Assembly (NCBI GenBank): GCA_021582655.1 | Contig: CP091135.1 | Span: forward strand, 578,549-642,548 | DNA length: 64,000 nt | Direction: 5' to 3' | Source of the DNA: Nitrosomonas sp. | Lineage (GTDB): Bacteria; Pseudomonadota; Gammaproteobacteria; Burkholderiales; Nitrosomonadaceae | Part shown: piece by piece, positions 36,447 to 51,434 of the stretch | How positions within the stretch are numbered: position 1 is the first letter of the stretch | Layout of the letters: each line of letters opens with the position of its first letter | Made by a program: the position numbers and the translations under genes | Notes under the pieces: generated by a model | Seen by the model: the letters and a program-made list of their open reading frames with translations, nothing else | What the model was told of the DNA's origin: nothing | Database searches by the model: none

Positions 36447-37487
36447 ATGATCAAAACAACACTCACCGCCATACTCAAAGAAGCCGGCACCCTGCTTGAA
36501 AAAAGAGAATATACCGATGCAGCGTCCCTCTATCGCAAAGCGATGCAACTGCAACCCGGCAATGCGGCGGCGGCCATGGGGATTGCCATGATCCACAACC
36601 GTACGGGACAACCTGAAGAGGCGCTCAAAATTCTGCAGAATGTATGGAAAGCGATGTCCGGCAACAAAACCAAGAAAACCACAACCCCAAAAGCAGCCGT
36701 TCTTGCCCAGATCGGCCTGGCTCAACAGCAAACCGGACGAATCATCGAGGCACTGCAGAGCTTCAGGGAAGCCAATGTATTACGACCATCGGCCGAACTC
36801 TCCAAGCTCATTCAAAATCTGGAGAGCGCCGTTGAGAATCCCAATACCATTGCGCAATTGATTGCAAAAGCAAGCCAACTGCAACGCAGTGGCAAACTTG
36901 AAGAAGCCGCCAAGTTCTACTACACCGCTTTGCAACTCAATCCCGATCATCCGGAAGCACTCCATGGCCTCGGATTAGTACTTCGCGCCCAAAACGACCT
37001 GGATGGCGCGCTTCCCCTGATCCAGCAAGCCATTATATTGGCGCCGGACCGGCCTGATTACTACAACGATCTGGGGATCCTCTTTCAGGAACGCGGTGAA
37101 TTGGAAAAAGCCATCAGCTTTCACAAGCGCGCCATAAAAGTCAAAGCGGATTTCACTGCCGCATTCATCAACCTCGGCGTCGCCTACAAGCGCATCGGCA
37201 AGCTCGATGAAGCCATCGCCGCCTACCGCCAGGCCATACTGCTACAACCCAACTCTCCCGCCGCACACAACAACCTCGGCAATCTGCTGCGTATCCAAGG
37301 GGATCTGATCGGCGCACGCAAAGAACTCAAGCAGGCCATCAAGCTCCACCCTGGTTATCGGGATGCCATTGAGAATCTGGTCACTGTCGAACAAGAGCTT
37401 AAACAAAAAACGATCGCCGCACCCAAACCCGAGAAACCCAAAACTCCCGGCAAGCAGGGCAAAAAAAAACCAGGATCGGGTAATTAA
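36447..37487 (+). CDS. TPR-repeat protein
   Basis: 346 residues, 10 bases after the GT4 gene. Tetratricopeptide repeats cover about 15-60 and 130-320, with clear units such as PEALHGLGLVLRAQNDLDGA and AAFINLGVAYKRIGKLDEAI. The tail is Lys/Pro-rich and basic (PKPEKPKTPGKQGKKK). There is no signal peptide, so it is probably cytoplasmic, scaffolding or substrate-recognising for the two glycosyltransferases, as TPR proteins often are near protein glycosylation enzymes (inference). Confidence 0.85.
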   Translation: MIKTTLTAILKEAGTLLEKREYTDAASLYRKAMQLQPGNAAAAMGIAMIHNRTGQPEEALKILQNVWKAMSGNKTKKTTTPKAAVLAQIGLAQQQTGRIIEALQSFREANVLRPSAELSKLIQNLESAVENPNTIAQLIAKASQLQRSGKLEEAAKFYYTALQLNPDHPEALHGLGLVLRAQNDLDGALPLIQQAIILAPDRPDYYNDLGILFQERGELEKAISFHKRAIKVKADFTAAFINLGVAYKRIGKLDEAIAAYRQAILLQPNSPAAHNNLGNLLRIQGDLIGARKELKQAIKLHPGYRDAIENLVTVEQELKQKTIAAPKPEKPKTPGKQGKKKPGSGN

Positions 37488-38175: not shown

Positions 38176-39825
38176 GTGAAAAGGAATGAAGATTACAGTC
38201 AAAAGTGGTGGGGAAAAGCAATTCTCACTTCACTGACGGCCGGAATGTTCGCATGCACGATTGCGCTATTGATGGTTGGGTTGTACTTTATGGATTATGG
38301 CCCAATAAAATTGCTTGAGCAATTTGGCATTGACCGAAGTATGCAACTGTATTCGGAAGCTGCGGCAGCTCCGAAGTCATATAGATTTGCCTTTGTTGAT
38401 GTAGATAAAGCAGCATGTAAGCTTTTTCTCGATGAAAAAATCGATTCCGATCCGGAATGCCGAACAAGTAAACCCATCCCAACCAGCTTAATCATTGATT
38501 TTGTTCGAGCAGCCACTGAGTCACAGGCAGCATTGGTAATTATCGATGTCACTCTACCCGAGAAAAATGAGGTGCAGGATCGTGAAGCGCTCCAACAGGC
38601 GCTTGAAACCGGATCGAATTCATCAAATACCTGGATCATAGCACCGGTTTACGATAGGCCCAGTGACTCAGAAAATGGACTGACCATTGAAGGGGATCCG
38701 CGCTTCGACATTATTCCGACTCATACGAAAGGTCGCATATTACTCGCTTCGGCTGCAACATATACTGAGCATGGCGTTATTCGCACGTACCCAGCCGCCT
38801 CTTGCTATGCCATGACCGAGGGGCAGCGTTGGATACCGACCATTCCCTATCTTGCTGCTTTATTAATCGCCAACCCAATGGTTGCGCAATCTTATTATCG
38901 TCAGAACGATCAATCCGGGTTTGTAGCGGTCAATGCAAAAAATAACTGCAGCCAACTTAAAATCCCACCTGATTTTTTTAAGAACCAAAGTAATACTATA
39001 TTTTCAGCATTCGATCCGCTTGACACGACCCGAATCCCTCCCATTATCAGGTTTTTTTATTCGCTGCCAAGTTTAGGCATGCTGATGGACGAATCCGAGC
39101 GCGATCAAATAGCCATGAAGCATATCTATAACTATCAATATTATGAGGCAAGCAAACTGATTGATGCTGCTTCAGGCTGCATGCACAAACATGTCGATGG
39201 TATTTCGCATAGCCCTGGGTGCTTTAGATCCATCGGGGATTATTATCAAGGGAAAATTATTATCCTGGGATCCAGCCGCGCTCAAGCCATGGATCATGTA
39301 CAAACACCGATAGGAACGATGTCCGGCAGCGAGCTGATATTAAATGCTACGCGCGCTTTTCTGGAATTTGAGCCGCTGAAACAATCCCCGCCCCTTGCCA
39401 TGCTAATAGAGAAATTTAAAGGAATAGGCGTCGCGATGATACCGATGTTTTTTGCTTGGTGCCTGATTTTTTTGAGCGGACCCGCGACACGGGTCATTCG
39501 ACTGAAACTTGTTACGCAATGCAGAAGAACAAAATCGGGGATATTCAGACGGTATCGCTGGCGCATGCTGGATTGGATGCGTACTTTATTTGTCATTATC
39601 ATTTTCGTTCTCGGCATATACACAGCTTATATATTTGAAGTAATATATCTGTGGGAGCAGTTGGAACAAGGTGTTGCAACGGACTTGCTACTACCGGCAT
39701 TGGCACTCGGCCTACAAGGTTTTGCCGTCGGTGCGAAAATAATATCCAATACTTTTTATCAAATTGTCCTGGTTATTTTTACGTTCATACTGCATAGAAT
39801 AATCCGCTTTAAAAATATACGCTGA
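38176..39825 (+). CDS. CHASE2-domain membrane protein
   Basis: 549 residues starting with GTG. A first membrane segment (about 16-42) is followed by a large extracytoplasmic CHASE2-like domain (about 45-410) with SYRFAFVDVDKAACKLF, AALVIIDVTLPEKN and GKIIILGSSRAQAMDHVQTP. Three or four further membrane segments follow (about 415-440, 470-490, 500-545). Unlike most CHASE2 proteins it has no kinase or cyclase domain behind it, so it may act as a sensor or scaffold. It opens a five-gene operon with TPS and CHAT genes. Confidence 0.78.
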   Translation: MKRNEDYSQKWWGKAILTSLTAGMFACTIALLMVGLYFMDYGPIKLLEQFGIDRSMQLYSEAAAAPKSYRFAFVDVDKAACKLFLDEKIDSDPECRTSKPIPTSLIIDFVRAATESQAALVIIDVTLPEKNEVQDREALQQALETGSNSSNTWIIAPVYDRPSDSENGLTIEGDPRFDIIPTHTKGRILLASAATYTEHGVIRTYPAASCYAMTEGQRWIPTIPYLAALLIANPMVAQSYYRQNDQSGFVAVNAKNNCSQLKIPPDFFKNQSNTIFSAFDPLDTTRIPPIIRFFYSLPSLGMLMDESERDQIAMKHIYNYQYYEASKLIDAASGCMHKHVDGISHSPGCFRSIGDYYQGKIIILGSSRAQAMDHVQTPIGTMSGSELILNATRAFLEFEPLKQSPPLAMLIEKFKGIGVAMIPMFFAWCLIFLSGPATRVIRLKLVTQCRRTKSGIFRRYRWRMLDWMRTLFVIIIFVLGIYTAYIFEVIYLWEQLEQGVATDLLLPALALGLQGFAVGAKIISNTFYQIVLVIFTFILHRIIRFKNIR

Positions 39826-39838
39826 TAAGGTTGGCCAA

Positions 39839-40741
39839 ATGAAATTCAATCAATGGATTTGGGGAGTAATTACATTATTCTTTTCATCTATGGCAGCGGC
39901 GAACAATTGCGGTGTGATAGGAAAGATTAATGAAATAATCAATAAAAACAGTGATGACTCAGTATATGTCGTGAGCTCGGGGTGTGTGGCGCAACAACGA
40001 ATCTCCGCCTATGCATATCAATGGATTTATGATGGAGACCGATTTGAAATCACAGGCGATACCGAGGTCCATATTGCATTGGCTAAAGGAGAGAGGCGGG
40101 TTCTGACACAACATCACAGTGGACAAATACTGCACACACAGACAGCCGATGATCTTTACGATGACCAGAATAGCCTTTCCGGAAAATTCACACTTGCCAT
40201 AGATGTATGGAAGAAACTGGAACGGCAAAGAAAATCCATTCCCTTTTTTAATAAAGTCCGCGGCTCAGAACAGAATTTGACGATTCGAGAAGATCCGCTA
40301 TCACCATCCGGCGTACAACTCCTTCCCGCTAATTATGCGCAAATCGCATTGCTTTGGAGAGGCGGTCCCGCAACGGCAGTTTTGACAAACGCCGGACAGA
40401 CAGCAGAATTTCAGAGCGGCAATTGGGCTTATTTATTGATACCGGTATCTGAAATTCAAATGGAAATTTCCATTCGCTTGCAAGAACAGCGTATCCATTG
40501 GCAAATTAAAACAGCAATGAAAGCCCCTACTCCGGAAGGAATCGAGGAAAGTGATTTATCGAAACCACTTTTACAGCTGAATCGGGCAATCTGGATTCTT
40601 GGACAACAAGATCTAATGAATTGGCGGTTATTCGCACTCTCAGAGCTTGCAAGGCTCTCCCATAGAGGTATTTTTGCTGCTGAAGAACTATGGAAAGCCG
40701 CTCTTTCCGGAGAATTGGCAGCGGCATTGCAAGAAATATAA
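39839..40741 (+). CDS. Exported protein of unknown function in the TPS/CHAT operon
   Basis: 300 residues, 13 bases after the CHASE2 gene. The signal peptide ends SSMAAANNC. Residues 25-115 are beta-rich (WIYDGDRFEITGDTEVHIAL, GERRVLTQHHSGQ) and faintly recall FecR-type domains, though I cannot be sure. From 120 on are a Trp-containing mixed region and a helical C-terminus (LMNWRLFALSELARLS). Two Cys early in the mature chain. The position between CHASE2 and TpsB implies a periplasmic role in the same system. Confidence 0.65.
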   Translation: MKFNQWIWGVITLFFSSMAAANNCGVIGKINEIINKNSDDSVYVVSSGCVAQQRISAYAYQWIYDGDRFEITGDTEVHIALAKGERRVLTQHHSGQILHTQTADDLYDDQNSLSGKFTLAIDVWKKLERQRKSIPFFNKVRGSEQNLTIREDPLSPSGVQLLPANYAQIALLWRGGPATAVLTNAGQTAEFQSGNWAYLLIPVSEIQMEISIRLQEQRIHWQIKTAMKAPTPEGIEESDLSKPLLQLNRAIWILGQQDLMNWRLFALSELARLSHRGIFAAEELWKAALSGELAAALQEI

Positions 40742-40780
40742 ACCCTCTGATTACACAATACAAAACACAATACCGACAGC

Positions 40781-42493
40781 ATGAAAAGCTCGCGCGCTTA
40801 TACTGCGGTGATTTTGATGCTCGTTGCCACGACGGTCTACGGTCAGAGCGCCATCAATTCACCCTTCAATCTTCGCCCCAGTGAAACACCCTTGCAATTA
40901 ACCCCGCTACCCGCTGCACCCGATCTTTCCATCCCGGCGCAACCGGAGGAAACATCATCCCCGCCGTCCCCCCCCTTCCGGAAATCCGCTCAAGCGACTT
41001 TGGATGCAATTTTATTTGAGGGTAACACGGTCGTTACCACCGAAGAACTCGACGCATTAGCACAATCCTATCTGCATAAGCCTGTCGGTATCGATGAAAT
41101 AGAAGAGTTACGCCGCACGATAACCTATTATTACATCAATAAGGGTTACATCACTTCAGGTGCCATTTTCCCTCCCAACCCCATCGACGGAAAAACATTG
41201 CGAATCAATATCGTGGAAGGAAAAATCGAGGAAACGCGTATTGCGGGCCAGGGATGGTTGCGGCACAGTTATATCGAAAATCGCCTGATTCCGGAAAAAA
41301 ATACGCCTCTGAATATGAAGATACTGCAAGACCGGTTTCGCGTGCTACTGACAGACCCTTTGTTCGAGCGGTTGAATGGTCGCTTGATTCCCGGCTCTGA
41401 TCGAGGCGCCAGTATTCTGGATTTGGAAGTCACTCGTGCACGGCCTTACCAATTGGCGGCAATTTCGGATAACTACCGCGCACCTTCGGTCGGCGGTATC
41501 GCACTGGGCGCTAACGCATGGATCCGCAACTTGACCAGGCAAGGCGATCTTATCGATTTCACTTTTTTAACGAGCGCGCCGGCCGGTGGAAATGCCTACC
41601 AGTATTCGGGAACTTGGTTAATGCCGATCAATGATTACGGAACAAGGGCATATTTTTCCGCGAATAATACCAATGTATCGATCATTGAAGAACCATTAGC
41701 AAATATCAATATTCACAGCGATTCGTTTACTGTCGAAGGTGGAGTGAATCAACTGCTGGCCGACAGTCTGCAAAGACGCGTGTCTGTCGGTTCCGGAATC
41801 AGTTTTAAAGACAACGAAACCCGTTTGCTGGATCAATCTTTTTCTTTTATCCCGGGATTACTGCAGGGGAAGAGTCAAATTTCAACAGTACGTATCCACC
41901 AAGAGTATATAGAACGCTGGGAAAAATTTGCCCTGGCATTCCGTTCCTCTTTCAGTGTTGGCGTTGATGCATTTGGCTCAACGATACAAAAGAATCACTT
42001 GAATCCTGACAGTGAATATTTTGCCTGGCTTGGACAAAGCCGTGGAATCTGGAATTTACCGCAAATTAAGAGCGATTTCGTATTTAAAGGTACCGTACAA
42101 GTAAGCAATGATCCACTACTGCCTCTAGAGCGCATGGCGGTTGGTGGACGGCATACAGTACGCGGATATCGTGAGAATCAATTGGTTAGAGACAACGGCT
42201 ATGCTGCCAGCACGGAATTACATATCCATCTGGTTGGTGATAATCAAGCCAAGTATCGATTTGATTTGGTACCATTTTTTGATTTTGGTGCGGCCTGGAA
42301 CAATGACGACTCGACCCTTATCAAGCAAACCACGCAACACATATATTCTGCCGGAATCGGATTTCAATTTCGGATGAATCGCTTCAGCAGCGAATTTTTC
42401 TGGGCGCACCGCCTTGAAGGCAAGTCACCGCAACAGCATGGTAATTTGCAAGATCAGGGTATTCATTTTCAAGCACGGCTTGATGCTTTCTAA
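40781..42493 (+). CDS. TpsB two-partner secretion transporter (ShlB/FhaC/HecB family)
   Basis: 570 residues. Signal peptide (about 1-22), then a Pro-rich linker, a POTRA_2 domain (about 70-150; FEGNTVVTTEELDALAQSYL, YYINKGYITSGAIFP) and a 16-strand ShlB-type barrel with the conserved GGRHTVRGYRENQL (VRGY/F motif of lid loop L6) and a terminal Phe (ARLDAF). It should export the TpsA protein encoded at 44820 across the outer membrane. It lies 8 bases before the CHAT gene. Confidence 0.92.
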   Translation: MKSSRAYTAVILMLVATTVYGQSAINSPFNLRPSETPLQLTPLPAAPDLSIPAQPEETSSPPSPPFRKSAQATLDAILFEGNTVVTTEELDALAQSYLHKPVGIDEIEELRRTITYYYINKGYITSGAIFPPNPIDGKTLRINIVEGKIEETRIAGQGWLRHSYIENRLIPEKNTPLNMKILQDRFRVLLTDPLFERLNGRLIPGSDRGASILDLEVTRARPYQLAAISDNYRAPSVGGIALGANAWIRNLTRQGDLIDFTFLTSAPAGGNAYQYSGTWLMPINDYGTRAYFSANNTNVSIIEEPLANINIHSDSFTVEGGVNQLLADSLQRRVSVGSGISFKDNETRLLDQSFSFIPGLLQGKSQISTVRIHQEYIERWEKFALAFRSSFSVGVDAFGSTIQKNHLNPDSEYFAWLGQSRGIWNLPQIKSDFVFKGTVQVSNDPLLPLERMAVGGRHTVRGYRENQLVRDNGYAASTELHIHLVGDNQAKYRFDLVPFFDFGAAWNNDDSTLIKQTTQHIYSAGIGFQFRMNRFSSEFFWAHRLEGKSPQQHGNLQDQGIHFQARLDAF

Positions 42494-42501
42494 ACTGGGT
42501 G

Positions 42502-44823
42502 ATGACAATGCATTTGCTGATCAAAGTTGTTTTGCTGGCAACATTGTTGATAGCGAGCTTCGTTAAACACGGTTTCCCGGCAACGCCGGATGATTTGCTG
42601 CGAAGCGCCAATGATTACCTAAACCGGGAACAATATTACCTTGCGCTGCAAGAAGCTGATAACGCACTCAAAAGCGCGTCAAATTCAACGCAACTGTCCA
42701 TGGCTTACGGCATTAAAGGCCATATTCTGCTGATTATGCAGCGCCACCAAGAGGCCAAGGAGTTTTTGCTCAAAGCACTGGAATTAGCCCATGAAAAAAA
42801 ACACAAGGCGAATTATGCCAATAGTCTGGGTGTGCTTGAACAAAAAATCCATGATCCAGCAAAAGCACAGCATTTCTTTCAGTTAGCGGCCGAATATGTT
42901 GAGGGCGATCCGCTTCTAGAACTACGAATTAAATTAAATCAGCTACGCACTCAGCAGGAGTACCCTGATACCGAAAAACTTAACGATATGCTGCATGAGA
43001 TTGCCGCGGTTGACGCTGTCGATGAACGTGTTCGGTTTTATTTAAATCTTGCTGCAATCGCACGGATGAACACACCGGGATACATGCCGATCATTCAGCG
43101 TGCTTTGGAAGATGCCTATAACGATAGCGCTGCCGTCAGGGACAAATCATTACGCATCGAAGCACTTGATAGCATTGCGGCATTATATGAATCGCAAGGC
43201 GATAACCTGCAAGCATTGGCATTCAGCGAATTGGCATCCGTACAGGCACAGCAGGCGGATGTTGACGATCTGATGATTCAAATCGAATGGCGTAAAGGAC
43301 GGATTTATCAACAACAGGGCCGCGATCGCGACGCTTTGGCGGCTTTTGGTAAAGCGGTTGATTACATTCAAGCCATCCGCCGAGATATTCCGGTGTACTA
43401 CGAAGATGGCAAATCGTCTTTCCGTAAAACATTGGAACCGATTTATTTAGGTTATACCAGCCAATTACTAAAAAAAGCCCGGCAGCAAAGCGGGCAAGCA
43501 AAGCAGCAAACATTGATGCTGGCACGGCAAACCATCGAATTGATCAAACAATCCGAACTGGAAGATTTTCTTGGCGGGCGTTGTCTGATCGCCGGTTTAC
43601 AGCGCAGCGAGCTGGATGATTTTGATACGCAAGCCGCGATCTTATACCCCATTATTTTAGAGGACCGGCTTGAATTGTTATTGAGTATCGGTCGAACGGT
43701 ACAACAGTTTCCGGTTTTGGTACCTGAACGACAACTTCGTGACGCCATTTCAAGTTTATCCGGTCAGCTGCGCAGATGGACCCTATCCCCGGGGGATGTC
43801 GACGATTCCGATGCATATCGTCAATCCGCGGTGAATTTATATCAGTGGATAATCGCACCGATAGCGCCGGAACTCGAAAACGCAAATATCAAAACCATCA
43901 TTTTTGTACCTGACAGCATACTGCGTTTAGTACCATTCGCAGCCTTATTCGACGGCAGAAAGTATTTAATCGAAAAATATGCGATTTCTATTTCACCGGG
44001 AATGAGTTTGCTGGGTAACCGAGATCATCGCTCACCCGCCAATTTCCAGACACTCTTGGCAGGAGTGAGCGAACCGGGGCCTATGGTTGAGAAATTATCT
44101 GCGTCAACGCTCAACAATTTGTTATTCGCCGAATCGCAGCATGTGGATCCGCCAATCATGACACGCGGGCTATCCGATTATCGGCTTCGCAGTTCCGATA
44201 GTAGCGGAGAAGCTTTCAGTCAGTCACAACGTTATAAAAATACGGCGATATCGTCACAAACAGCTCAACAACGGCTGAGTCTGCCCGGCGTGGAAACAGA
44301 ACTGCTCAATCTAAAAGAAACGCTGACAAGCACGCTGCTGTTGAATGAACAATTTACCATTGCCAATTTTTCCGAGTACATCAGCAAGCAATCTTTTGAT
44401 ATCGTCCACATCGCATCGCACGGCTTTTTCTCCTCGGATGCGGATAAAAGTTTCGTGATGGCATTCGATGACATTCTGAAATTGGATGACCTGAAGCGTC
44501 TCCTGAAGCCAGGAAACAAGACAAAGAAAAGCATTCAATTATTGACCTTCAGCGCTTGTGAAACAGCTGAGGGCGATGACCGCGCGCCATTGGGGTTTGC
44601 CGGTGCCGCATTGCAAGCGGATGCACAAAGTGCACTAGGCTCACTATGGCCGATTTCCGATGAGGCGGCTTCACAACTGATGATCAGTTTTTATAACCAC
44701 CTAATGCAGCATAAGAGCAAGGCGGAGGCACTCCGGCAAGCGCAATTGGAACTGTTAAAAACTGACTACATGCGCCACCCCTCTTTCTGGTCGCCATTTA
44801 TTTTGATTGGGAATTGGTTATGA
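42502..44823 (+). CDS. TPR-CHAT caspase-like protein
   Basis: 773 residues from ATG 42502; GTG 42499 and ATG 42508 are alternatives. A hydrophobic N-terminus (LLIKVVLLATLLIASFV) looks like a signal peptide, unusual for CHAT proteins, so export is possible. Residues 25-330 are helical TPR-like repeats (SMAYGIKGHILLIMQRHQEA). The C-terminal CHAT domain (about 420-773) has the dyad His640 (IVHIASHGFF) and Cys686 (LTFSACETAEGDD), plus APLGFAGAALQADAQSALGS and HPSFWSPFILIGNW. It probably cleaves a partner protein. Its stop overlaps the tpsA start as ATGA. Confidence 0.88.
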   Translation: MTMHLLIKVVLLATLLIASFVKHGFPATPDDLLRSANDYLNREQYYLALQEADNALKSASNSTQLSMAYGIKGHILLIMQRHQEAKEFLLKALELAHEKKHKANYANSLGVLEQKIHDPAKAQHFFQLAAEYVEGDPLLELRIKLNQLRTQQEYPDTEKLNDMLHEIAAVDAVDERVRFYLNLAAIARMNTPGYMPIIQRALEDAYNDSAAVRDKSLRIEALDSIAALYESQGDNLQALAFSELASVQAQQADVDDLMIQIEWRKGRIYQQQGRDRDALAAFGKAVDYIQAIRRDIPVYYEDGKSSFRKTLEPIYLGYTSQLLKKARQQSGQAKQQTLMLARQTIELIKQSELEDFLGGRCLIAGLQRSELDDFDTQAAILYPIILEDRLELLLSIGRTVQQFPVLVPERQLRDAISSLSGQLRRWTLSPGDVDDSDAYRQSAVNLYQWIIAPIAPELENANIKTIIFVPDSILRLVPFAALFDGRKYLIEKYAISISPGMSLLGNRDHRSPANFQTLLAGVSEPGPMVEKLSASTLNNLLFAESQHVDPPIMTRGLSDYRLRSSDSSGEAFSQSQRYKNTAISSQTAQQRLSLPGVETELLNLKETLTSTLLLNEQFTIANFSEYISKQSFDIVHIASHGFFSSDADKSFVMAFDDILKLDDLKRLLKPGNKTKKSIQLLTFSACETAEGDDRAPLGFAGAALQADAQSALGSLWPISDEAASQLMISFYNHLMQHKSKAEALRQAQLELLKTDYMRHPSFWSPFILIGNWL

Positions 44824-47800
44824 AAAATCGCTGCATCATCATTTCAGCCTGGTTGATTTGCTTGAGTGGCAATGCCATAGCCGTCAACACACACATCCAA
44901 ACCGATAATACTTTGTCGGGAATCAGCGAATTCAATATTAACGCACCGGGCTCTGAACAATGCTACACTTTGTCGGAGATCAACGGCGCAATTGCCGGCG
45001 ACAATCTGTTTTACAGTTTTTCCGATTTTAATATCGGAACGGGCGACACCGCCTGGTTTAGTTTAAACACTCCCAATATCACAAATGTCATCAGCCGCGT
45101 AACGGGCGGTTCTGTATCAATGATCGATGGTCAACTCAAAATGACCCATGGGGATAGCACTCCCAGTTTTTTCTTAATCAACCCGGCAGGAATTACATTT
45201 AGCTCGGGCGCGTCCGTCGATGTACCCGGTTCTTTTTATGTGAGCACCGCCAGTGGATTGAATTTCAGTGATGGGCGTCAATGGGCTGCAAGTAATCCGC
45301 ATACCAGTTCGTTGTCGGTGGCAAATCCTGAGTCGTTTGGATTTTTGGGGGATGAATCAGGAAGTTTGAATTTAGGTGATTTATCGCTAATGCGTACTAA
45401 GCTTACTTTCCATCCAGGCTCAGATATTGAGTTTGTGGGCAATCAAATCCAGATTAATAATGCGTCAATTATGAGTACAGCCATTCCCAATAATAATTTG
45501 ACTCAAGATGGTCTTGATTTGCAGCTTATTGCAACAGGAAATGAAGCTGCAAATATCAAATTCAATACCCCGCCAAGCTATACCACCGCAGGTAATCTGA
45601 CTATTCAAAATACAGTTCTAGATGCTTCAGGTAACGGGTCTGGGAGATTAGCAATTCGATCAAGTGATTTTGTTGCGACAGGAAGTATATTACGTGTTGT
45701 AAACTTTGATATTCCGATGTCATTCGCTCAAGGAATTGATATAAATGTGAAGAATTTATTAGTAGAAAACTCTGTTTTTACTAGTAGAGCTTCAGGTGCT
45801 GGAACAGGTGGAGAAATTAAAGTTGTAGTAGAAGATGCATTAAAAATACAAGGGATCGGGCAGATCTATTCACAAACATTGGGAAAAGGAAAAGCCGGCA
45901 ATATAACGGTTACTGCAAAACAAGCAGAGATCCAGGGGATAAGTCAAACAGAAATTTTTACTGGCATTGCTAGCTGGACTGAGAAAGGCAGCACGAATGA
46001 CGCAGGGAATGTGACCGTGGCAGTTGCGGATGCATTAAAAATGACTGGAGGAGGACAAATTTTCTCAAACACTTTTTCCCAAGGCAAATCTGGTGATGTA
46101 TTTGTATCAGCAGGTCAAATGGAGATAAATGGACTTGGCTTAACAGATGTTATTACCACTATTGCAAGTCAGGCTCGTGAAGGAAGTACTAACGATGCTG
46201 GGAATGTAACTGTGGAGGTTATAGATACACTGAAATTGGTAGCTGGAGGACAAATTTCTGCCGACACGCTCTCTCGAGGGAAAGCAGGCAACATCAATGT
46301 TTCGGCAAGTCAATTGGAGATTGATGGTAAGGGTTTATCAAATGTAGCTACAAGTATTGCAAGTCAAGCGCATAATGGCAGCACTTACGATGCAGGACAG
46401 ATTAAGGTTACGATAACCGACACGTTAAAGTTACTCGGTGGAGGATCCATAAATTCAGGGACTTATTACTCTCCAGGTAAGGCTGGTGAAATAAGAGTTA
46501 CCGCTCGCAATTTAGAAATCGACGGACAAGGTTTCAATTCAAATATTTCAAGCCAGGCGGAGTATGGTACCGGTAATGCGGGGGCGGTATATGTAAATGT
46601 GACGGAGACATTGAAATTGCTGGGAAGTGGACAAATTTCTTCAAGCACCTTCTCGCAAGGAAATGCAGGTGAAGTGAATGTTACTGCCCATCAATTGAAA
46701 ATTGATGGGCAAAGCTCATCGAGTTTCGCTACTGCTATTGCAAGCATTGCTACCGAAAAAAGTACTGGGAGTGCAGGGCAAGTCATTGTAACAGTATCCG
46801 ACACCATAGAATTATTGAGAAATGGCCAGATTCTCGCCGATACTTCTTCTACATCTACTCAAGGACACGCCGGAGAGGTTACTGTATCTGCAAAGCAAAT
46901 CACGATTAATGGTTCTGGTACTTTAGGAGATGGTCTCACAGGTATTTCGAGTTCGTCGCAACCCGGCAGCTTGGGTAACGCTGGGAAAGTATCTGTCACA
47001 GTAGCGGATACTTTAAGAGTAGTGGATGGTGGACAAATTAGTTCAAGTGCATTAAAGCAATCTCAAGGAAATGCTGGAGAGATTACAGTTCTTGCGGGAG
47101 AATTGATCATTGATGGTCATGGCTTGTCAGAAAATAACACTGGTGTGTTTAGCGGGGTTGCCACTGATAGTATTGGCAATGCAGGACCTGTAAGCATAAC
47201 AGTAACTGATCTATTGCAGATGCTTGGTGGTGGAGAAATTGGTTCAAGTAGTTTTTCACTAGGCGGGGCTGGAGAAGTAACAGTTACCGCAGGAAGAATG
47301 GAAATTGATGATTCCACAATTTCAAGTGGTGCGCTTTTTTGGCAAAATCGAGGGGTGGGGAATATCAGAATCAATGTCACCAATGGAGATATTCAACTAA
47401 GTAACCAAGCACTTATTACGACACTAAATTTGGCATTTTCTGGCGTCCCCAAGGAGTTCGGCAATGTTGAAATTAATCTTACTAACGGTTCTTTTTATCT
47501 CGATTCATCACAAATTAATACCGAATCGATTATCGGTCATGGCGGAAAAATTGATATCAATACTAAAGAAGTTATTTCATTATTCAACTCATCTGTTACA
47601 ACCTCTGTTTATGGTCCGACAGGTAATGGCGGTGATATCAATCTTGCCTCAAACTTTCTAACTCTAGATACCGGATTTATTAAAGCAAATACTTTGGCAG
47701 TGGACGGGAGTGGTGGTGATATCAACATTAAGGTACCAACCATCATCCCTAGCGGTAATTCATTATTTGTCGGTGGCAATACACCATTCCAATTTCAACC

Positions 47801-48041
47801 TTTCTCCGGGCTGAATGTCATCCAAGCCGCTGCACCTGATGGCGTGGGTGGCGTCGTTAATGTAACTACGCCGCAGCTTAATTTGAACGCGATGCTAACC
47901 AATCTGACGATCGAATCTTTCGATACCAATGCAATAAACCGTGACATGTGCGCAGTTAGTGAAAACAGCTCCTTACTGCAATCCGGACGCGGGGCGCAGC
48001 CGTTACGGGCCCGCGATTTGTTGCTGTCACCGGCGTTTTAG
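44820..48041 (+). CDS. TpsA-type filamentous haemagglutinin exoprotein
   Basis: 1073 residues. Signal peptide (about 1-24), then the TPS secretion domain (about 25-270) with the motif FFLINPAGITFSSGASVDVP (NPxGI). About 310-840 are tandem units of 70-75 residues on a G.GG.I.S.T.S.GKAG.I.V.A..LEIDG pattern, for a right-handed beta-helix. The C-terminus has a single conserved Cys region (RDMCAVSENSSLLQSGRG) as in TpsA proteins of cyanobacteria and other bacteria. ATG 44820 is preferred over TTG 44814. It should be exported by the TpsB encoded upstream. Confidence 0.9.
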   Translation: MKNRCIIISAWLICLSGNAIAVNTHIQTDNTLSGISEFNINAPGSEQCYTLSEINGAIAGDNLFYSFSDFNIGTGDTAWFSLNTPNITNVISRVTGGSVSMIDGQLKMTHGDSTPSFFLINPAGITFSSGASVDVPGSFYVSTASGLNFSDGRQWAASNPHTSSLSVANPESFGFLGDESGSLNLGDLSLMRTKLTFHPGSDIEFVGNQIQINNASIMSTAIPNNNLTQDGLDLQLIATGNEAANIKFNTPPSYTTAGNLTIQNTVLDASGNGSGRLAIRSSDFVATGSILRVVNFDIPMSFAQGIDINVKNLLVENSVFTSRASGAGTGGEIKVVVEDALKIQGIGQIYSQTLGKGKAGNITVTAKQAEIQGISQTEIFTGIASWTEKGSTNDAGNVTVAVADALKMTGGGQIFSNTFSQGKSGDVFVSAGQMEINGLGLTDVITTIASQAREGSTNDAGNVTVEVIDTLKLVAGGQISADTLSRGKAGNINVSASQLEIDGKGLSNVATSIASQAHNGSTYDAGQIKVTITDTLKLLGGGSINSGTYYSPGKAGEIRVTARNLEIDGQGFNSNISSQAEYGTGNAGAVYVNVTETLKLLGSGQISSSTFSQGNAGEVNVTAHQLKIDGQSSSSFATAIASIATEKSTGSAGQVIVTVSDTIELLRNGQILADTSSTSTQGHAGEVTVSAKQITINGSGTLGDGLTGISSSSQPGSLGNAGKVSVTVADTLRVVDGGQISSSALKQSQGNAGEITVLAGELIIDGHGLSENNTGVFSGVATDSIGNAGPVSITVTDLLQMLGGGEIGSSSFSLGGAGEVTVTAGRMEIDDSTISSGALFWQNRGVGNIRINVTNGDIQLSNQALITTLNLAFSGVPKEFGNVEINLTNGSFYLDSSQINTESIIGHGGKIDINTKEVISLFNSSVTTSVYGPTGNGGDINLASNFLTLDTGFIKANTLAVDGSGGDINIKVPTIIPSGNSLFVGGNTPFQFQPFSGLNVIQAAAPDGVGGVVNVTTPQLNLNAMLTNLTIESFDTNAINRDMCAVSENSSLLQSGRGAQPLRARDLLLSPAF

Positions 48042-48235: not shown

Positions 48236-49303
48236 ATGAGAATTTTGCTCTTAGGTTTTGTATTGGTATTAACTGCTTGTGCAACACAAACGCATCAACC
48301 TGAAACCGGGGTTGAGATATCCGAAGCGCAACAAGAAGAATGGGTTGTTGAAACTCAAAAATGGTTGCGTGATGCGGCGCGATTGGAATCGGTTTTTTTC
48401 AAAATTCTAACTAAAGGGATTGATTATTGTGAAAAACAGGACCATACCGCACCTTATTTTGGCATCCAATTTTGGTCAAACCAGAGACTTCACTCATCAT
48501 TGCAGCAAGTAGCACAATCCAAATTCAATCTAGGAAGCGAGCCGCAGATATTGATTGTGGTTCCCACATCTCCGGCGGATTCCGCCGGACTCAGAGTCAA
48601 TGACAAGATTCTGGAAATAAATGGTGTAGGAGTGCAAACCGTATCAGATACCCAAAAGAAGATCAATGAAGCCAAGGCTGCCTTACAACCCGTATCTTTT
48701 ACCATACTGCGTGCCGGCGAGCGGCAAACCCTAGTTGCTTCACCGGTGTCGGGTTGCAAAAGCCAGATAGCGTTGGTGAATAACGACACCATCAGAACCG
48801 CCACGGACGGCGAAACAATTCAAATCACCAGAGGCTTGTTGCATTTTGCCCAATCCGATGAAGAAATTGCCGCGATCATTAGCCATCAGCTTGCGCATAA
48901 TGCCAGAAAACACCATCGAACAAACAAGATTACGGGAGGTGTCGGCGGTATTCTAATTGGCAGTGTTGGTGTCGCAGCAGATACAGCATTAGCGATTGTA
49001 ACCGGCGGTATTTTCCCTATCGGCATATTTGCTGGGATAGGATGGGATGCGGGCCATTCGATGGCAGGCGGCATCTCGGACAGTCAACTTCAACTGGCGG
49101 ATCGTGACAGCCTGCAACTCATGGCGACGGCTGGTTATGAAACAGATAACGTAATACAATTCTGGCAACGCGTACAGGATGATGCATCCAACAATCTCAA
49201 TGACCTACGAAACTCACATCCTTTCTCGCAAGATCGCTTAAAAGCAATGGAGTTGGCACAAGAAGAAAAGGCAAAAGAGAATTTGTACTCAAGATTGAAG
49301 TAA
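48236..49303 (+). CDS. PDZ/M48-like lipoprotein with altered zinc motif
   Basis: 355 residues. Lipobox VLTACAT at about 11-17. A PDZ domain (about 95-175) has VPTSPADSAGLRVNDKILEI. An M48-like domain follows (about 185-340), where HExxH is replaced by HQLAH (217-221) and the third-ligand EAD by LAD (Leu287). A Gly/Ile-rich insert lies between. Without the catalytic Glu and the third ligand it is probably not an active peptidase, yet the reading frame is intact. Regulatory or chaperone function is inferred. It follows tpsA by 194 bases. Confidence 0.82.
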   Translation: MRILLLGFVLVLTACATQTHQPETGVEISEAQQEEWVVETQKWLRDAARLESVFFKILTKGIDYCEKQDHTAPYFGIQFWSNQRLHSSLQQVAQSKFNLGSEPQILIVVPTSPADSAGLRVNDKILEINGVGVQTVSDTQKKINEAKAALQPVSFTILRAGERQTLVASPVSGCKSQIALVNNDTIRTATDGETIQITRGLLHFAQSDEEIAAIISHQLAHNARKHHRTNKITGGVGGILIGSVGVAADTALAIVTGGIFPIGIFAGIGWDAGHSMAGGISDSQLQLADRDSLQLMATAGYETDNVIQFWQRVQDDASNNLNDLRNSHPFSQDRLKAMELAQEEKAKENLYSRLK

Positions 49304-49541: not shown

Positions 49542-51434
49542 ATGTTAAAAAAAATTAAGTTATCTTCGAGATATTTTTTATTTCTTGTATTGATTTTCTT
49601 GTCGCAATTTACTCATGCAGAAAAAGCCGAATCAACGTTTTATAACCCTATTAGTACTAAAAGAGAAAGTAACAATAATGAATTTATTGACAAAAGTGGA
49701 CCTGTTTATGCAGTTACCCTGCCGGACATTGAAGTCAATATTACGCCCTCTGATAAAGGACCGCGTCAAACCGGGATTACTTATCAACTACCGGAACCAG
49801 TATCAAATATACAGCTAGCTTGGAAAGAAGTAACAGAAGGTTACGTCACTCGCATACAGCTTTTCGCCGATCAGGCCAAACATCTGCGTTTTCATCTTCG
49901 TTTTGCGAATCGACTATCGTCTATGGACATTCAGTTGCGAGTACAAGGAAACTTAGACACAGCCCCTCTCGGTCCAGTTAATCAATCCGGCATCTACACA
50001 AGTGAGTTATGGTTGCCCACTACCAAGGGCGATAGCGCAGAATTGGAAATTTTTATTAAAAGTTCAAGCTATCCTGATTCACCTATTTTCGTTTTAGATG
50101 CGATTAACTTTATTGTTGTTGATAACACTGATTCCAGTATTATCCCTTATAGCCAGGGCCTGGCGCGCGAAAAAGAATATGATTTGGCATGTTGGAGCGG
50201 AAACTCTGAGTATAACGCTTTAAAGAAGGCTGCTGATGCAACTGCAAAAATTCATTATATTACAAGCGATGGCTCATATATATGTAGCGGCACACTACTT
50301 AACGACACAAGCAATTCATTTACGCTTTGGTTCGCTACCGCTCATCATTGCCTTCCAGATCAGGCCACGGCGAGCACTGCGGAACTTGAATGGTTTTACC
50401 AGGCGACAAACTGCGACAGTCCCCAGACAGATTCACGCCATGAAAAAACCTCTGGTGGTGCACAACTGCTCTGGACGGATTTCGAAAACGATGTATCGTT
50501 TTTGAAGTTATATAAAAAAACTAGCGGCCCAATGCAGTTCTCGGGTTGGCAGACGGATATCGAAGTTGGTGATCTTATATGGGGAGTACACCATCCCAAA
50601 GGAGATCATACCATGGTGAGTAATGGCAACGTAGCCGCTCTGCTGCAGAACCACAAGAGTGACGAAGGGACTCGCATATTGGATGAAGTCAAATTTGCCA
50701 ATGGCGGCGCTGAAGGCGGGAGTAGTGGCTCAGGGCTATTCTCCATTGAAGGTGATAACTCATACTGGAAAGGCACCTTATACGGAGGGCCACCCGGTGA
50801 CTATCAAAAAAACTCTTATAGTCATTTTGACCGTTATTTCAGTAAAATAAGCGGATGGCTTAAAAATACTGCTCCAACTCCCCCAACCACAGAACAGATA
50901 TCATGCGTATTCGATGAGTATTGGAAAAGTTATCGCTATGAACACGCGTATAACGCCAATTATCAGGAATATATATATCGGTTTAATCAAGCTTACGATT
51001 TTTATTTAGGTGTATCTTACACAAACAATCACCTGTATTACATGTATGGATATGATGGCAGGATTAATGATTTAGGGCCATTCTCAGATTGGCTAAAGAA
51101 GTATGGTTGTGATAGTACAAGCAACACTTTAACTTGGAAAATAAAGGATCTTAGAAAAAATAATCATTATCAAGTTAATTATAAATTCTATGATATAGAC
51201 AACGATCTGGTATGGCCATCAAACCATGAGATATATTATATCGAAAATTACAATGAAGAATATTCCCACGTCTTGCCCTGTAATAAGGGCGCAAAAATTT
51301 GCATTGGAGGGCGTAGCGGCGGCAGTTATTATACTGGCGTTTATTGGGGTGTAGACATCGACAATAGTAATGGCTGCACAGATTGTTGCTCATATTGCGA
51401 TGGAAGTACCAGATATTTCAATTTTGTCGATTAA
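49542..51434 (+). CDS. Secreted trypsin-like serine protease with large C-terminal domain
   Basis: 630 residues. Signal peptide 1-26 (ending FTHA). A beta-sandwich-like region at about 45-195 precedes the S1 domain: His269 (ATAHHCL), an Asp in FENDVSFLKL (about 325), and Ser395 (GSSGSGLF), resembling lysyl endopeptidase-type enzymes. After about 450 a 180-residue C-terminal region is rich in Tyr, Asn and Cys (CNKGAKICIGG, GCTDCCSYCDG) and not recognised. The AT-rich DNA and absence of a ribosome site before ATG 49542 set it apart from its neighbours. Confidence 0.85.
   Translation: MLKKIKLSSRYFLFLVLIFLSQFTHAEKAESTFYNPISTKRESNNNEFIDKSGPVYAVTLPDIEVNITPSDKGPRQTGITYQLPEPVSNIQLAWKEVTEGYVTRIQLFADQAKHLRFHLRFANRLSSMDIQLRVQGNLDTAPLGPVNQSGIYTSELWLPTTKGDSAELEIFIKSSSYPDSPIFVLDAINFIVVDNTDSSIIPYSQGLAREKEYDLACWSGNSEYNALKKAADATAKIHYITSDGSYICSGTLLNDTSNSFTLWFATAHHCLPDQATASTAELEWFYQATNCDSPQTDSRHEKTSGGAQLLWTDFENDVSFLKLYKKTSGPMQFSGWQTDIEVGDLIWGVHHPKGDHTMVSNGNVAALLQNHKSDEGTRILDEVKFANGGAEGGSSGSGLFSIEGDNSYWKGTLYGGPPGDYQKNSYSHFDRYFSKISGWLKNTAPTPPTTEQISCVFDEYWKSYRYEHAYNANYQEYIYRFNQAYDFYLGVSYTNNHLYYMYGYDGRINDLGPFSDWLKKYGCDSTSNTLTWKIKDLRKNNHYQVNYKFYDIDNDLVWPSNHEIYYIENYNEEYSHVLPCNKGAKICIGGRSGGSYYTGVYWGVDIDNSNGCTDCCSYCDGSTRYFNFVD

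Follow-up and report, generated by a model that had tools for sequence, protein, structure and literature searches.

Why does a gene for a caspase-like protease lie between the two genes of a system that secretes surface proteins? The question is raised by a five-gene operon of Nitrosomonas sp. (assembly GCA_021582655.1, contig CP091135.1) within the 64 000-nucleotide stretch analysed here, which we call the window. In order, its genes encode a CHASE2 membrane protein, an exported protein of 300 amino acids (aa), the transporter TpsB of a two-partner secretion (TPS) system, a TPR-CHAT protein, and a large TpsA. We find that the CHAT gene belongs to one clade of protease genes that recurrently accompany TPS genes, and that the TpsA partners of this clade share a C-terminal tail that is a candidate substrate; the sequences suggest a dedicated, so far undescribed route for processing or releasing surface proteins. 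Our preferred reading, to which we give about an even chance, is that a dedicated third partner has joined the two-partner system: a TPR-CHAT protease of the periplasm, which would cut the TpsA tail to process or release TpsA.

The original prediction, made from the letters of the window, described the five genes as one unit, and its layout holds. All five open reading frames (ORFs) are open and co-directional where it placed them, the first two gaps are 13 and 39 bases, and the overlap of the CHAT and tpsA genes in ATGA is seen in the DNA. The third gap, between the TpsB and CHAT genes, is 8 bases when counted to the ATG at 42502, as predicted, and 5 bases when counted to the GTG at 42499 (from ORF ends and DNA). 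By domains and gene cluster, the window TpsB and TpsA are a predicted two-partner secretion (type Vb) pair, TpsA bearing an N-terminal TPS domain and its gene being clustered with that of a ShlB-type TpsB. The source genome is a single contig of 2.46 Mb, 83% complete; in it CHAT, TPS, and the tail are matched once each and CHASE2 twice.

Pairing of CHAT and TPS genes in one CHAT clade

By scanning named genomes with an alignment of four CHAT proteins (that of the window and the three best order matches), we collected 80 loci (designated by L numbers, as genomes are by G numbers), which are the best 80 of at least 554 confirmed relatives, i.e. the loci closest to the window CHAT; here and below, every count tallies genomes or loci rather than independent events. 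By their record titles the loci span Methylococcales, Burkholderiales, other Proteobacteria, Desulfobacterota, Cyanobacteria, and one Muiribacteriota. A TPS-domain gene, a TpsB gene, or the tail lies within 10 kb of the clade CHAT at 67/80 loci (TPS 55, TpsB 54, tail 51; CHASE2 is found at 25), and at 33 of the 37 loci that have at least 5 kb of flank on both sides. The tail frequency near CHAT is partly due to construction, the profiles having been made from CHAT-found loci; the genome-wide tail searches described below are free of this. In control stretches, some of them short, around CHAT genes of the window's order that fall outside the clade, TPS is present at 0/26, TpsB at 6/26, and CHASE2 at 11/26. 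Thus, an operon that is an accident of one genome is ruled out by the 67/80 clade loci versus the control TPS count of 0/26. A general pairing of any CHAT with TPS is also ruled out, the pairing being limited to one clade by profile score: the 96 clade ORFs score at least 575 bits, versus at most 346 bits for other CHATs, while a few clade scores of 129–332 bits come from cut or split genes. The original prediction had named rare joint occurrence of CHAT and TPS genes as what would count against it; the pairing proves to be widespread, and confined to one CHAT clade.

Gene order varies among loci, including TpsB–CHAT–TPS, TPS–TpsB–CHAT, and divergent forms. The five-gene order of the window recurs in L052, from an uncultured Thiotrichales metagenome-assembled genome (MAG), where the CHASE2 protein has no cyclase part and the second gene encodes an exported-looking protein; a second locus of the same MAG (L050) also has this order, its CHASE2 and TPS genes being cut by or near contig ends. 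Among the CHAT loci fetched from the window's order, the three nearest to the window protein (BLASTP E ≤7e-48) all lie in regions with TPS genes. The set is also present in cultured bacteria, for instance Undibacterium pigrum DSM 19792 (L051) and Methylobacter luteus (L040). A literature search found no open-access paper pairing ‘CHAT domain’ with two-partner secretion, CHASE2, or filamentous hemagglutinin; subscription papers were outside its scope.

A conserved C-terminal tail in the partner TpsA proteins

The TpsA partners of clade CHATs have in common a C-terminal stretch of ∼64 residues, the tail, which ends with a Cys, commonly Ser–Ser, and then G-x-G-G-x-P. The Cys is the sole invariant alignment column (56/56); the alignment takes the best stretch per protein from 56 of the 64 tails, eight near-copies being omitted. 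The tail profile, whose initial version also caught internal beta-helix repeats, matches 60 of the 70 TPS ORFs near clade CHATs, and of the ten others five run off a contig edge, two are fragments, and three are divergent. There are four extra matches in ORFs without a TPS label, two of which begin at contig base 1. Scans of the tails with Pfam and NCBIfam gave no family common to more than one tail, and Pfam found in the window TpsA no toxin domain such as CdiA of contact-dependent inhibition has at its C-terminus (an immunity gene was not looked for). At the x of G-x-G, 40 of the 63 distinct tails have Arg or Lys, which would suit many clan CD peptidases.

No Cys follows the tail in 32/64 proteins, that of the window included, and one or more follow it in the other 32. 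In the former set the tail Cys is the single Cys after residue 60 in 23 proteins; in the latter, exactly two Cys follow residue 60 in 26. The four Cys of the window TpsA are residues 7, 16, 50, and 1046, and this TpsA is the only one among the 53 proteins with a recognisable N-terminus to have an N-terminal Cys with which the tail Cys could pair. On a quick CHAT tree, which joins long outgroup branches (84 clade and 8 outgroup rows, with L086 dropped as an apparent L032 copy), one-Cys tails cluster (12 changes versus a shuffled mean of 25.5, with 0/500 shuffles as low) and two-Cys tails cluster less (18 changes versus 22.1, 5/500 as low); neither kind forms a clean clade.

A structure model of the C-terminal part, for which 33/64 proteins were used, is beta-rich to about residue 127 of the 185 modelled, as would be expected of a beta-helix, and then gives way to a low-confidence tail. 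Such low confidence after the predicted beta-helix is what a flexible cut site would give. In the fetched cyanobacterial loci the protein extends ∼80–90 residues past the tail, with the last Cys in this extension.

These features bear on an alternative that we consider unlikely, namely that CHAT is a sorting enzyme, which would cut the tail and join TpsA to a surface anchor much as PorU, the caspase-fold sorting enzyme of type IX secretion, processes the C-terminal signal of secreted proteins. A short C-terminal motif common to otherwise varied TpsA proteins, one dedicated enzyme clade, the many tail proteins of some genomes, and a tail modelled as flexible would all fit. Yet no anchor-making gene was recognised among the recurrent neighbour clusters, no membrane helix is seen beyond the tail when C-termini are judged by eye, and many tail proteins end only 7–16 residues past the modelled stretch, leaving little to remove.

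Co-occurrence of the tail and the CHAT clade in genome samples

In the window's order, sampled with 200 genomes, CHAT is matched in 55 and CHASE2 in 142; the tail occurs in 6, at seven sites, versus TPS genes in 91. All six tail genomes have a CHAT match, and six of the seven sites lie within 6 kb of one; the seventh falls on a short contig, its genome being fragmented. TPS, tail, and CHAT share one stretch in L032, L033, L034, L035, and L142, as in the window; in G144, counted as one genome, tail and CHAT lie on two short contigs (L143 and L144). Among the matches listed, no tail-less TPS gene was seen by eye within 20 kb of a CHAT in the order.

A sample of 369 genomes of the class has the tail in 20 and a CHAT profile match in 37, the latter splitting into 21 with a clade CHAT (best piece ≥259 bits) and 16 with another (≤126 bits). 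A clade CHAT is present in 17 of the 20 tail genomes versus 4 of the 349 others (Fisher p = 8e-23, phylogeny being ignored); one of the tail matches is marginal (G527, 8.3e-4) and was not refound by the tail profile on the fetched stretch.

The association is also seen in a cyanobacterial class, where 51 of 96 genomes have the tail and 50 a clade CHAT (E ≤1e-80): both are present in 48, the tail alone in 3, the CHAT alone in 2, and neither in 43. When only the 67 genomes of at least 3.6 Mb are considered, the corresponding numbers are 47, 3, 1, and 16. A CHAT match of any kind is found in 85/96 genomes, including 34 of the 45 without the tail, and a clade CHAT in just 2 of those 45; it is therefore this clade, not CHAT generally, that goes with the tail. 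Numbers of tail and clade-CHAT matches correlate across the 48 genomes (rho 0.82, a rough figure, as pieces were counted). Some of these genomes have 11 to 19 tail sites and many clade CHAT matches; the cyanobacterial loci and genomes concerned include L108, L110, and L115, and G227, G603, G613, G659, G666, G670, and G677.

Closer to the window the distribution is patchy. Among six members of the genus sampled, the window genome alone has the tail (0/5 of the others), and the nearest relative of the window CHAT comes from a Methylococcaceae MAG (60% over 476 columns); because of these two observations, lateral acquisition of the window's CHAT–TpsA region is suggested. Both would also fit genes co-inherited as a mobile cluster with no common mechanism. 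We hold this to be very improbable, given that the pairing persists though gene order varies, and that in the cyanobacterial class the tail and the CHAT clade vary together from genome to genome, both in presence and in number of matches.

The CHAT protein of the clade

The catalytic dyad was predicted to be intact. Both residues are present, their numbering being His641 and Cys687 from the GTG start (640 and 686, as in the original prediction, apply from the next ATG), and they are kept in 36/36 aligned clade CHATs (36 of the 96 clade sequences were aligned). Together with a PF12770 domain, this dyad places the window protein in the CHAT peptidase family. Its structure model (predicted local distance difference test, pLDDT, 88.4) was searched with Foldseek, in which five of the six best Protein Data Bank matches are titled TPR-CHAT, Csx29, or Craspase (E 2e-13 to 3e-12) and separase appears at ranks 13 to 16. 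The clade CHAT is best read as a putative caspase-fold cysteine protease. The clade proteins also look exported: the signal-like N-terminus noted for the window protein extends to 79/96 clade CHATs by a crude rule, and the remaining 17 comprise 8 that are truncated or have their start missing and 9 that are signal-like by eye.

A second, non-catalytic Cys between TPR and CHAT (Cys362) is likewise invariant (36/36). Its motif is absent from the non-clade control CHATs, the sole match among them being spurious, at the catalytic Cys of L138. Exactly two Cys follow residue 80 in 70/96 clade proteins, among them the window protein with Cys362 and Cys687.

TPR repeats bind peptides, and CHAT might use them to chaperone, tether, or stop TpsA or TpsB in the periplasm, with proteolysis incidental. 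Peptide binding, together with an invariant extra Cys that could hold the tail by a disulfide, would suit such a role; the dyad His and Cys, needless for a pure tether, are nonetheless kept in 36/36, and we regard this alternative as quite improbable. The invariant Cys between TPR and CHAT is also among the points in favour of a reversed signal, a reading to which we assign a small probability. TpsA or its stalled tail would then be a sensor that switches on CHAT to cut some other envelope protein, much as Csx29 is allosterically switched via its last TPR repeat (PMC10028731), and the cyclase-bearing CHASE2-type neighbours described below suggest signalling. However, no other substrate candidate is as constant as the tail (DUF928-type proteins 12/87, CHASE2 25/80).

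CHASE2 and the exported 300-aa protein

As predicted, the CHASE2 protein lacks a kinase domain: Pfam finds CHASE2 and neither a kinase nor a cyclase, so that the window copy has no output domain of the kind that marks a CHASE2 receptor. Its standing as an operon partner has been lowered. It is present in the window, but is a looser companion, found at 25/80 loci and also at 11/26 controls without TPS; because it lies near CHATs without TPS, and is common in the order (142/200), it is weakened as a specific member. These counts are lower bounds, the domain being divergent. Neighbouring genes with both CHASE2 and Guanylate_cyc occur at L035, L051, L093, and L113 and at control L123; an L084 neighbour has Guanylate_cyc only, its CHASE2 part falling short of 0.01, and CHASE2 alone, as in the window, is seen at L040 and L052.

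No relatives of the 300-aa protein were found in the fetched loci or in 29 genomes, the latter search having had no positive control and showing little. Some relatives of the operon carry other exported-looking proteins (DUF928 or unnamed) in second place, and kinship between these and the 300-aa protein is a guess from position alone. A DUF928-type neighbour cluster is found in 12/87 stretches (L032 and L086 are apparently one contig), the label coming from one scanned member (L117, E = 6.5e-58). The exported-looking protein of L051 has a weak DUF928 match (9e-4) under the curated cut-off, and those of L040, L052, and L084 have no Pfam match.

Proposed mechanism

In our preferred reading, TpsA would pass the outer membrane via TpsB with its N-terminus leading, and its tail would stay in the periplasm or the TpsB pore, by analogy with HMW1, HxuA, and CdrA. 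The exported TPR-CHAT protein would recognise the tail and cut at or near it, and the cut would mature the surface protein or free it. The inner-membrane CHASE2 protein and the exported 300-aa protein would probably report an outside signal that times the protease. The sequences themselves show how the genes are ordered, that the dyad is intact, that the N-termini are signal-like, that the tail exists, and that it closely accompanies the CHAT clade; release, sorting, and signalling are indistinguishable by sequence. The initial idea of a surface protein whose processing depends on a sensed signal thus keeps its CHAT–TPS link and its signal-like CHAT N-terminus, its CHASE2 part being weaker.

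Several observations weigh against this mechanism. Three divergent TPS proteins (L097, L098, and L102) have no detectable tail, and 19/63 tails have a residue other than Arg or Lys at the x of G-x-G, a further 4 being outside the pattern used. Four CHAT loci with long flanks (L067, L083, L111, and L116) have no TPS, TpsB, or tail. In the class sample, three genomes have the tail without a clade CHAT (G256, G327, and G591) and four have a clade CHAT without the tail (G380, G413, G436, and G459). A CHAT lies within the fetched stretch at 13/37 tail sites of the class (that of the window excluded; many contigs are short, and eight stretches one-sided), and several genomes have more tails than CHATs; the pair is therefore often not one operon. 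Shared descent of one cluster could explain part of the co-occurrence, the counts carrying no phylogenetic correction. For the enzyme, the signal-peptide rule is crude and cannot stand in for a trained predictor, and whole-chain superposition on the best six Foldseek matches is poor (template modelling score 0.38–0.52, root-mean-square deviation ∼12–14 Å).

A bolder and rather doubtful extension is that the tail represents a novel signal for C-terminal sorting, with the CHAT clade as its dedicated enzyme in Pseudomonadota, Desulfobacterota, and Cyanobacteria, and that the tail Cys and Cys362, meeting in a mixed disulfide or as a thiol switch, couple the arrival of TpsA to protease activity.

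To our knowledge, few CHAT proteins have a proven substrate. CHATs are numerous, as the count of 85/96 genomes in one cyanobacterial class illustrates, and the tail offers a candidate enzyme–substrate pair for one large clade, with a possible means for cyanobacteria and methanotrophs to control the proteins shown on, or shed from, their surface.

Feature coordinates and further observations

Table 1. Features of the operon, in positions of the window
Feature	Coordinates	Strand	Evidence
CHASE2 membrane protein, 549 aa, no kinase or cyclase domain	38176..39825	+	PF05226 E=1.2e-13, residues 31-405
Exported unknown, 300 aa	39839..40741	+	No family match above cut-off; positional comparison only
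TpsB outer-membrane transporter	40781..42493	+	ShlB 2.7e-25, POTRA_2 1.5e-19 (PF03865, PF08479)
TPR-CHAT caspase-like protease (predicted), 774 aa, signal-like N-terminus	42499..44823	+	CHAT PF12770 1.2e-59, TPR_12
Cys362 codon, invariant non-catalytic Cys between TPR and CHAT	43582..43584	+	36/36 clade sequences
CHAT domain, residues 443-772	43825..44814	+	Pfam
Catalytic His641 codon	44419..44421	+	36/36 clade sequences
Catalytic Cys687 codon	44557..44559	+	36/36 clade sequences
TpsA	44814..48041	+	ORF from TTG 44814, likely start ATG 44820; PF05860 7.2e-25, TIGR01901 4.2e-17
TPS secretion domain, residues 57-279	44982..45650	+	Pfam
Conserved TpsA C-terminal tail, residues 1001-1063	47814..48002	+	Tail profile
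Invariant tail Cys1046 codon	47949..47951	+	56/56 aligned tails
G-R-G-A core of the G-x-G-G motif, residues 1058-1061	47985..47996	+	Codon check

Upstream of the operon, a TPR gene (36447-37487) came up as a further CHAT; the match was due to its TPR repeats alone, and it was disregarded. Downstream of tpsA, and co-directional with it, are two more genes of protease-like type, one for an M48 peptidase with PDZ (48236-49303) and one for a trypsin-like protein (49542-51434).

Six of the 26 controls (L120, L122, L123, L125, L126, and L130) have CHAT, CHASE2, and TpsB with no TPS gene in the stretch, and two genomes of this group (G136 and G051) are not among the listed TPS-match genomes; this related CHAT group may represent another version of the system. 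By eye, type VI secretion-like genes adjoin the CHAT cluster in Methylococcales loci L088, L097, L098, L100, L102, and L103. A small protein, caspase-like by eye and with a signal-like N-terminus, lies near CHAT–TPS genes at L107:13855-14697, with relatives in L097, L102, and L105. Rechecked profile cross-matches were clean save for L099:1-600, an in-frame join of a TpsB N-terminal part and a CHAT C-terminal part; L099 holds additional copies of TpsB and CHAT, and the join is a deletion remnant or a fault of MAG assembly.

Comparison with known systems

Like PorU, the window CHAT is predicted to be an enzyme of caspase-like fold. PorU belongs to a gingipain-type family and its translocon is unrelated to TpsB, whereas the window enzyme is of the CHAT family and its putative substrate would take the TpsB route. 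Proteolytic maturation of a TpsA, which we propose here, is also known for FhaB of Bordetella, in which CtpA acts. DegP has been linked to this maturation (PMC8263021), and FhaB is matured by SphB1, a subtilisin autotransporter; unlike the CHAT gene of the window, the SphB1 gene lies outside the TPS locus, fhaB–fhaC (PMC5422565).

HMW1 and HxuA of Haemophilus influenzae have a C-terminal disulfide anchor that locks TpsA in the TpsB pore (PMC5422565). The 32/64 tail proteins with further Cys beyond the tail resemble them in this respect; the other 32/64 do not, and the window TpsA has a single Cys (1046) near its end rather than a Cys pair of the HMW1 type. The excerpts consulted mention no CHAT gene for HMW1 or HxuA.

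Csx29 of Craspase (type III-E CRISPR) is a proven protease, RNA-activated and bound to Cas7-11 (PMC10028731). Target RNA switches it on to cut Csx30. The clade CHATs are like it in having TPR followed by CHAT, in the His/Cys dyad, and in giving it among the best fold matches, and unlike it in that they look exported and sit with TPS genes; the signal-like N-terminus speaks against a cytoplasmic location of the Craspase type (Cas7-11 was not searched for). The last TPR repeat of Csx29 contains its activation region (AR1 313-325, AR2 356-411; PMC10028731), and Cys362 falls roughly there by residue count, not by superposition.

According to a 2017 review, TpsA protease genes appear not to be part of TPS operons (PMC5422565); the window departs from this general statement, with a gene for a predicted caspase-fold TPR-CHAT protease inside its TPS operon. 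A close parallel in function may be CdrA–CdrB of Pseudomonas aeruginosa, where the periplasmic cysteine protease LapG cuts the CdrA tail under cyclic di-GMP control and frees CdrA from the cell surface (PMC5422565, PMC4694147), and the window similarly joins a TpsA with a C-terminal tail to a candidate periplasmic cysteine protease. A Cys hook is mentioned for CdrA (PMC11898600), whereas the window TpsA tail has one Cys and no hook. The proteases also differ, LapG being transglutaminase-like and the window protein a CHAT outside the LapG family, with Pfam matches to CHAT, TPR, and one ARM-repeat family (E 0.1) and nothing else. By this analogy, the simplest reading of the locus is a CdrA–LapG-like working, in which the protease would be of another family and encoded with its substrate.

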